Program-made: the position numbers and the translations under genes | Assembly (NCBI RefSeq): GCF_029919255.1 | Contig: NZ_CP123991.1 | Span: forward strand, 861,110 to 925,109 | Direction of reading: 5' to 3' | DNA length: 64,000 nt | DNA from: a cyanobacterium endosymbiont of Epithemia clementina EcSB | GTDB lineage: Bacteria; Cyanobacteriota; Cyanobacteriia; Cyanobacteriales; Microcystaceae | Shown: positions 44,561-45,778 of the stretch, piece by piece | How positions within the stretch are numbered: position 1 is the first letter of the stretch | Layout of the letters: each line of letters opens with the position of its first letter | Notes under the pieces: generated by a model | Told to the model about the DNA's origin: nothing | Seen by the model: the letters and a program-made list of their open reading frames with translations, nothing else | The model's database searches: none

Positions 44561-45454
44561 TTAGTAAACCTCAACGTGCCAACGGTGATCTTTTTTCATG
44601 GACTTGACAAAGTCAGACCACTCTACACCCTGCTTTTTAGCAAAGGGAGCGAGTCCTTCTTCAATGCCGCTTTCCATCCCTTTTAGTCCACACATATATA
44701 GGTGGGTTTTGGGCTGTTGTAGCATATTCCATAATTCTTTGGCGTGCTCAGCGACTCGATGCTGAATGTACATTTTGCCACCGTCTTTGTTTTGCTGTTC
44801 TCGACTGATAGCACTGGTAAGACGAAAGTTTTCGGGGTAATCTGCTTGCATCTTCTCTAAATCATCTTTGTAGAGAAAATTAGCGGAGTAAGGAACCCCA
44901 AAAATCAACCAAGCCAGTCCTTTAAATTTATAGTCTTCGTGTTGTTCTTTGAACATCCGCCAGAGAAATGAACGGAAGGGAGCAATTCCAGTCCCTGTTG
45001 CTAACATGATGACAGTAGCGTCCTCATCTTCAGGGAGAAGCATTTCCTTACCTACGGGTCCGGTAATGGCTACATCAGCACCAACCTCCAAATAACACAG
45101 ATGGGTCGAACAAACACCATAAACGGGTTCTCCAGTTTCAGGATGTTTATATTCAAGTTGACGAACACACAAAGAGACTGTCCCATCGTCGAGCTTATCA
45201 CCATGACGGGTAGATGCGATGGAATAGAGTCTTAACTTATGGGGTTTGCCATTTTCGTCAGTTCCCGGGGGAATAATCCCAATACTTTGTCCTTCCAAAT
45301 AGTGTAAATCTCCGCCGGAGATATCAAAGGTGAGGTGTTGAACAATTCCACTACCGCCTTCGGCGACGAGAGGATAATTTTCAATACATTTCCCGATATA
45401 AGGATCTTTGGGCTTGTAAATATTAACAGGAATTTTCGCCTTTGCTTGAGTCAT
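44561..45454 (-). CDS. petH: Ferredoxin-NADP+ reductase, short (FNR_S-like) form
   Basis: FAD enzyme exchanging electrons between ferredoxin and NADP(H). The 297-aa product contains the complete catalytic part: [13 protein letters not shown] (FAD, about 75-87), [35 protein letters not shown] (NADP pyrophosphate, about 148-166), [16 protein letters not shown], and the terminal WHVEVY whose Tyr stacks on FAD. Cyanobacterial FNR is normally about 400 aa with an N-terminal CpcD-like phycobilisome-docking domain; that domain is present but dead just upstream (45455-45778). Translation must begin at ATG 45454, codon 109 of the ancestral frame, near the known FNR_S start. In this cell FNR probably runs from NADPH to ferredoxin, supplying nitrogenase. 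Confidence 0.95.
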
Positions 45455-45778
45455 ATACTTATCTTGTTGGTTTCTTGTTGCTTTGCAGTTGTTCTACGAC
45501 CTGGGGTTCTGACTTGTTGGTGGTAAGTTGCAAAGGAGTATCTGCATTCAGAGGTTTGACCTCAATAATCCGAATACCCATACGAGCAATGCAGCACGTT
45601 TCCTAATTCATTCACTGATAGGACACAGTGATAGAGAAACTCCCACTGCGACGAATTGGGTAGTTAAGACTATCATTAATCGCTACTCTGAATCTAACCC
45701 CACAACCCCGTAAACAAACAGTTGGTTTCCAGACACTGTTGCTTTGGTTGAAGTTGCCTTTAAATTTGAACTGTACAT
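45455..45778 (-). pseudogene. petH: Dead N-terminal CpcD-like domain of petH
   Basis: Leftward from ATG 45778 the frame reads MYSSNLKATSTK and GNQLFVYGVVGLDSE, then a stop; this is the conserved start of long cyanobacterial FNR. In a shifted frame the domain goes on: NDSLNYPIRRSGSFSITVSY, stops, then CIARMGIRIIEVKPLNA, and a linker [17 protein letters not shown]. The ancestral ATG at 45778 is in the same frame as the catalytic part and would give 405 aa, the usual length. At least one frameshift near 45690, two or more stops and a second frame change before 45454 kill it. Confidence 0.92.

Follow-up and report, generated by a model that had tools for sequence, protein, structure and literature searches.

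The petH locus

The window, the whole stretch of 64,000 nucleotides analysed here, belongs to a genome (G000) assembled as a single contig of 3,072,807 bases (completeness 99.78), with no plasmid in the assembly. From kinship and from its decayed photosynthesis genes, the organism is most probably a diatom endosymbiont. Gene density in the window is low, with 48 open reading frames of at least 90 aa in 64 kb and long stretches free of such frames, as is found under genome reduction. We compared the window with three further endosymbiont genomes of the same genus: G005, which we take to be the endosymbiont of Rhopalodia gibberula (NZ_AP018341.1); G003, which we take to be Cyanobacterium sp. uoEpiScrs1 (NZ_OX373462.1); and G002, presumably the Epithemia turgida endosymbiont. 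Three other members of the genus, G001, G004 (UBA12306) and G006, were taken as free-living on the basis of their intact genes.

All features described below lie on the minus strand of the window. The enzyme part of petH occupies positions 44561..45454 and begins with an ATG (45452..45454) that opens a frame of 297 aa without stops, so that the catalytic 297 residues are as intact as an earlier note on this DNA had claimed. The predicted product is a plant-type ferredoxin-NADP reductase (FNR) resembling the short form, FNR_S. It matches the Pfam model PF00175 above its cut-off and two FAD-binding models just below theirs, and it aligns end to end with solved cyanobacterial ferredoxin-NADP reductases (304 aa, e.g. 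1gjr). Thirteen of the 14 FAD-contact residues named in the available part of PMC3691600 are kept, and the sole change (Q to K) is also present in the free-living G001. With FAD- and NADP-binding domains that appear intact and no CpcD domain, the product shares these two features with FNR_S; it would lack those of the long form, FNR_L, there being no open in-frame CpcD and apparently no phycobilisome to bind. We also observed that FNR residue 162, an alanine in 105 of 106 long-form comparators, is serine in the four diatom endosymbionts and in one of two UCYN-A-like genomes, and that residue 181, an alanine in 103 of the 106, is serine in G002 and in both UCYN-A-like genomes.

The ATG of the enzyme part aligns with the internal methionine of intact relatives and is the first start codon available in a 310-codon open frame. 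Thirteen codons, none of them a start codon, separate it from the last in-frame stop (TAG, 45494..45496). The earlier note was right that this internal ATG had been retained, but it placed it at ancestral codon 109; in the three intact genus relatives compared it is codon 108 (the G001 petH encodes 404 aa), and the higher number arose because the net 3 nt gained by the decayed copy had been counted. An internal methionine is widespread in long FNRs, though not universal: 91 of 107 distinct long FNRs have one no more than 25 residues upstream of the conserved PVNxYxP motif.

Upstream of the internal ATG, positions 45455..45778 hold what remains of a CpcD-like docking domain and its linker, as identified by a Pfam match and by alignment to intact relatives. 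The old long-form ATG (45776..45778), which the earlier note had put at the same place, opens a dead frame of 31 aa beginning MYSSNLKATSTKATVSGNQLFVYGVVGLDSE and ending at a TAG (45683..45685) downstream of a frameshift at codon 29. The Pfam CpcD model (PF01383) matches positions 45552-45674 with 29.4 bits (cut-off 27), across one TGA and one TAG. Relative to G001, the nearest intact relative, the lesions are +1 insertions at codons 29, 33 and 105, a CGA to TGA change at codon 55 (45612..45614) and a CAA to TAG change at codon 58 (45603..45605). The docking domain has thus been lost, in agreement with the earlier note, and the long FNR is not predicted to be makeable from this gene by ordinary translation. 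Across the 3.07-Mb contig we found one FNR match only, with no second FNR or petH, and no CpcD match at an E-value of 0.001 or better beyond the petH remnant. An intact second copy, which by the earlier note would have refuted the loss, is thus absent from what we found on the contig, where the short FNR_S-like enzyme is the only intact part of petH. Two related endosymbionts have plasmids (5.6 and 6.4 kb; five genes), according to the available part of PMC11131595.

The lesions are largely shared. The +1 at codon 29, the frameshift at codon 33 and the TAG at codon 58 occur in all four endosymbiont genomes, and three of the four have in common both the TGA at codon 55 and the +1 at codon 105. 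On the simplest reading, the CpcD-like domain was dead before the four endosymbionts diverged, since these lesions are common to them all. The enzyme part, by contrast with the remnant, is fully open in all four.

Antenna, photosystem and nitrogenase genes

A search for phycobilisome genes, as proposed in the earlier note, revealed no intact gene of the families PF00502 or PF00427 in the window's genome: PF00427 had no match, and PF00502 matched in two places, both with stops. PF00427 linkers were found in none of G000, G002, G003, G005 and the UCYN-A-like G013, and in 7 places in G001 and 8 in G006. The photosystem I genes psaA and psaB are reduced to stop-ridden pieces in the window's genome and to fragments in G005, were not found when searched for in G002 and G003, and are intact in G001, G006, G013 and G401. 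The psaA/psaB remnants of the window's genome, with their many stops, lie outside the window at G000:C1:2151964-2153483. Genes of photosystem I, photosystem II and phycobiliproteins are tabled among those missing from diatom endosymbionts in the portion of PMC12903740 that was available. In all eight genomes searched, the top PF00142 match, which we took to be nifH, runs its full length with no stop. A second PF00142 gene is broken in G002, which fits the loss of a chlorophyll gene reported for the Epithemia turgida endosymbiont.

Selection on the two halves of petH

Pairwise dN/dS in the enzyme part was 0.04-0.12 among the four endosymbionts and 0.05-0.08 among G001, G004 and G006. Between G000 and G003, changes at the first, second and third codon positions numbered 13/3/75 in the enzyme part and 25/22/19 in the remnant, the latter an even spread (chi-square p 0.66); the intact free-living domain pair G001-G006 gave 7/11/23 (p 0.006). 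In the closest pair, G000-G005, the remnant count of 16/6/8 is not clearly even (p 0.06), and its pattern is unlike coding constraint. The enzyme part is under strong purifying selection and the docking-domain remnant is not, which bears out the contrast between a constrained half and a decaying half drawn in the earlier note.

We observed one stretch of low variation within the remnant, about 45 nt immediately before the internal ATG (45455..45500), which may be the translation-initiation region of the short form. Among the four endosymbionts, 7 of its 45 sites vary, whereas 96 of 276 do so elsewhere in the remnant (Fisher p 0.006); counting indels too gives 9/45 and 104/276 (p 0.014). Indel events alone are not rarer there (2 in 45 sites vs 8 in 276). 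The 45-nt size was picked after the diatom-endosymbiont data had been seen, and 10 of the 277 possible segments of that size in the remnant are equally low, 9 of which start no more than 53 nt from the ATG. In the UCYN-A-like pair, for which the segment was left as it was, there were 2 variable sites in 45, compared with 32 in 171 (p 0.011). The three free-living relatives show no such conservation: they have 0.222 changes per site in these 45 nt and 0.203 in the remainder of the domain. The predicted unpaired probability is 0.69 over the segment compared with 0.42 overall, as calculated for one sequence and without a shuffle control. Together, these comparisons provide modest evidence that the 45 nt before the internal ATG may be under selection as the initiation region of the short form. 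Any ordinary start site would be expected to look alike, the internal start now acting as the start of petH. The earlier note had the gene decaying only up to its internal start; the decay of the domain stands, and if the 45-nt result holds, the protected stretch begins before the ATG.

The petH leader varies at 78 of 239 sites among the four endosymbionts, about like the first 276 nt of the remnant. Within it, a promoter-like block (CTAAAAAAACCTTAA ... CAAGGTTGACAG; 45919..45980, limits approximate) corresponds to the 45 nt of the leader that have changed least in the endosymbionts and is a putative promoter. This block is conserved between the endosymbionts and their free-living relatives, and the UCYN-A-like genomes have a similar motif. 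We rejected a consensus RNA structure for the leader: both partners had changed in 2 of 48 predicted pairs, and the term for covariation came out unfavourable (+2.24). A hairpin noticed by inspection was dropped as well.

A second symbiont lineage with a short petH frame

Two genomes of 1.4-1.5 Mb from the same family, G013 and G401, which we infer from gene content to be UCYN-A, have only a short FNR frame of 301 aa, starting MSAKTKVPVN at the aligned internal start. In an FNR tree of 22 rows, hand-picked from 129 loci, these UCYN-A-like sequences fell with long-form Crocosphaera relatives (98/93) and the diatom endosymbionts in a separate group (99/97), and both lineages had long forms as neighbours. 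Unless there was a regain, this means two losses of the docking domain. A second symbiont lineage, which evolved separately, thus also appears to have been reduced to the short petH. Both UCYN-A-like genomes lack a PF00427 linker match and have intact psaA and psaB; as they retain photosystem I genes, loss of photosystem I is not needed for loss of the docking domain.

At the protein level we found no CpcD remnant in the UCYN-A-like genomes (best E 3.0; likewise with the HMM). Alignment of the DNA gave z scores for the two genomes of 4.1 and 4.0 against G008, 3.7 and 2.4 against G014, and 0.8 and 0.1 against Cyanothece BG0011. This DNA-level remnant is weak, since the scores are highest against G008, although the FNR tree places G014 and BG0011 nearer to the UCYN-A-like genomes.

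FNR N termini across the phylum

Short N-terminal extensions occurred in 10 of 129 loci: the four endosymbionts, two duplicate records of these, the two UCYN-A-like genomes, L131 and L098, the last being short only since a contig end cuts it. L131 (match at 5001), from a Prochloraceae MAG, has a short FNR with no CpcD recognisable in the locus, yet its genome has 10 PF00427 places; it could be a real loss or a problem of the MAG.

A draw of 386 genomes from the phylum included at least 189 with a close FNR, of which 35 were picked by choice for detailed comparison. Twenty-four of the 35 are genomes of 1.6-1.9 Mb from one family (f29; L176-L199), which we infer to be Prochlorococcus-like. Their FNRs carry at the N terminus a hydrophobic segment that shows no similarity to CpcD; over 19 residues its mean Kyte-Doolittle value is 2.08-2.72, whereas 119 FNRs that have long extensions reach 1.55 at most. 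This segment, for example VIAGGLAHIPVVIAVFYFI, resembles a membrane anchor and stands where other FNRs carry CpcD. PF00427 had no match in 16 of these 24 genomes and one match in 8. Putative membrane anchoring by this N terminus may be another way out after loss or reduction of the phycobilisome; we found no report of it in the literature searched, which was available in part. Among the other genomes picked, a short FNR goes together with 6-11 linker places in five from two further families (three Gloeobacter-like ones of f32 and two of f31), and with no linker in four distant members of the phylum. The CpcD domain is clear in G387, while G355 has a weak CpcD-like match and its FNR in two pieces. 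Phycobilisome loss as a complete predictor of docking-domain loss is contradicted by the f29, f32 and f31 genomes and by L131.

Interpretation and alternatives

From these data, we propose that the docking domain decayed alongside the loss of the antenna and photosystems, that the gene retained its short form, and that this form acts from NADPH to ferredoxin, an account to which we give a probability of about 0.86. In free-living relatives petH can be read from two starts: the first yields a long enzyme that docks on phycobilisomes through the CpcD-like domain, and codon 108 yields a short soluble one. Loss of the antenna and photosystems in the ancestor of the diatom endosymbionts would have made the docking domain useless, letting frameshifts and stops build up. 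The internal start, and probably also the short stretch before it, would have stayed under selection, with petH now predicted to give the short form only. As no working photosystem I is left to reduce ferredoxin, electrons most likely pass through the enzyme from NADPH of the pentose phosphate pathway to ferredoxin, supplying nitrogenase and other users of ferredoxin. This mechanistic reading of a short-form-only petH is likely; its more tentative parts are translation from the internal ATG, selection on the stretch before it, the direction of electron flow and the order of losses, in which the earlier note put the phycobilisomes first.

Frameshifts are a common long-read error and one assembly lies behind the window, so the long petH might really be intact and the lesions be errors of sequencing or assembly, as the earlier note had allowed. 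The same codon-29, codon-33 and codon-58 lesions recur in three other, separate assemblies (NZ_AP018341.1 and NZ_OX373462.1 being two of them), which also have lesions of their own, and the codon-position bias is gone in the wider pairs; the lesions are hence not errors, and the chance that they are is close to negligible. The old ATG and pieces of the domain can still be read in the window, as they would be if a long protein were made by programmed frameshifting or read-through, or if the 5' piece were a regulatory upstream frame. We regard this as extremely unlikely: the frames from the old start differ between genomes (31, 56 and 54 aa, with GTG-TAA in the fourth), translation of the window's copy would need to get past several shifts and stops, and variation in the first 276 nt of the remnant is about that of the leader. 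It is also very improbable that the whole of petH is decaying with the enzyme part next. Genome reduction is ongoing in this group of endosymbionts (PMC11131595, in the part available), but the strong purifying selection, the conserved FAD residues and an enzyme part that is open in all four endosymbionts speak against such a course.

A different question is whether the domain was lost adaptively or passively, the short form in the first case having been actively favoured by being freed from the membrane or antenna for nitrogenase. Two separate N2-fixing symbiont lineages have the short form only, the UCYN-A-like genomes lost the domain despite intact psaA and psaB, the otherwise conserved FNR sites 162 and 181 have changed to serine in both lineages, and the part of PMC6462935 available reports that the short isoform accumulates in N2-fixing Anabaena cultures, with transcripts found in heterocysts. 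On the other hand, both lineages are without PF00427 linkers, which explains the loss without any advantage, dN/dS in the enzyme resembles that of free-living pairs, and the window's FNR departs at only 1 of 131 conserved columns. We consider active favouring unlikely, though it is a serious contender. A still wider claim would join three elements: convergence of two N2-fixing endosymbiont lineages on an FNR_S-only petH, decay that stops about 45 nt before the ATG at a compact selected initiation element, and loss of the long form favoured by freeing the enzyme for NADPH-fed nitrogenase. This combination is, in our judgment, doubtful.

Relation to known systems

The FNR of the window shares with FNR_S of Synechocystis and Anabaena the same gene, the internal-start region and a two-domain enzyme without CpcD; it differs in that both forms are made and regulated there, whereas the long form is not predicted to be makeable here by ordinary translation. 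Gloeobacter violaceus likewise has the short form only, but the available text of PMC9144156 describes this as primitive and not as a loss, and the Gloeobacter-like genomes surveyed (so named by inference) keep phycobilisome linkers, unlike the window's genome. The UCYN-A-like FNRs are alike in their short frame, aligned internal start and lack of a linker match, and unlike in forming a separate lineage in the FNR tree with psaA and psaB intact. The Prochlorococcus-like f29 FNRs are alike in having no recognisable CpcD and unlike in their hydrophobic, membrane-anchor-like N terminus.

What the long and short FNRs each do in cyanobacteria is a matter of debate. In the portion of PMC9144156 available, the short form is made by alternative initiation and acts as an NADPH oxidase. 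PMC6462935, again in part, considers it as a more direct route to nitrogenase and raises objections: electron flow from NADPH to ferredoxin is uphill unless NADPH/NADP is very high, and a direct FNR route does not explain DBMIB inhibition of nitrogenase in heterocysts. As excerpted, PMC9319322 reports that Synechococcus 7002 making only the short form, over-expressed, is impaired in photoheterotrophic growth and that a truncated petH under its own promoter was unobtainable; because of these results, the short form alone is not harmless everywhere. For diazoplasts, a route from NADPH of the pentose phosphate pathway to ferredoxin for nitrogenase through a retained FNR has been proposed (PMC11070190, from the part available), so this role of the enzyme is already in print. 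In the literature searched, which was available in part, we found no report of docking-domain loss in diatom endosymbionts or UCYN-A, and the main texts of PMC5638926, PMC11131595 and PMC12903740 do not mention petH or FNR. What the present analysis adds is the loss of the domain, its sharing, the apparent second lineage and the possible protected initiation region.

Nature may have supplied short-form-only strains in the diatom and UCYN-A-like symbionts, the former without photosystem I and the latter with it. The decayed docking domain, being close to neutral, may let the initiation region of the short form stand out. The 45-nt stretch thereby gives a testable size for the control region of the internal start, and the symbionts would provide a test of the NADPH route to nitrogenase.
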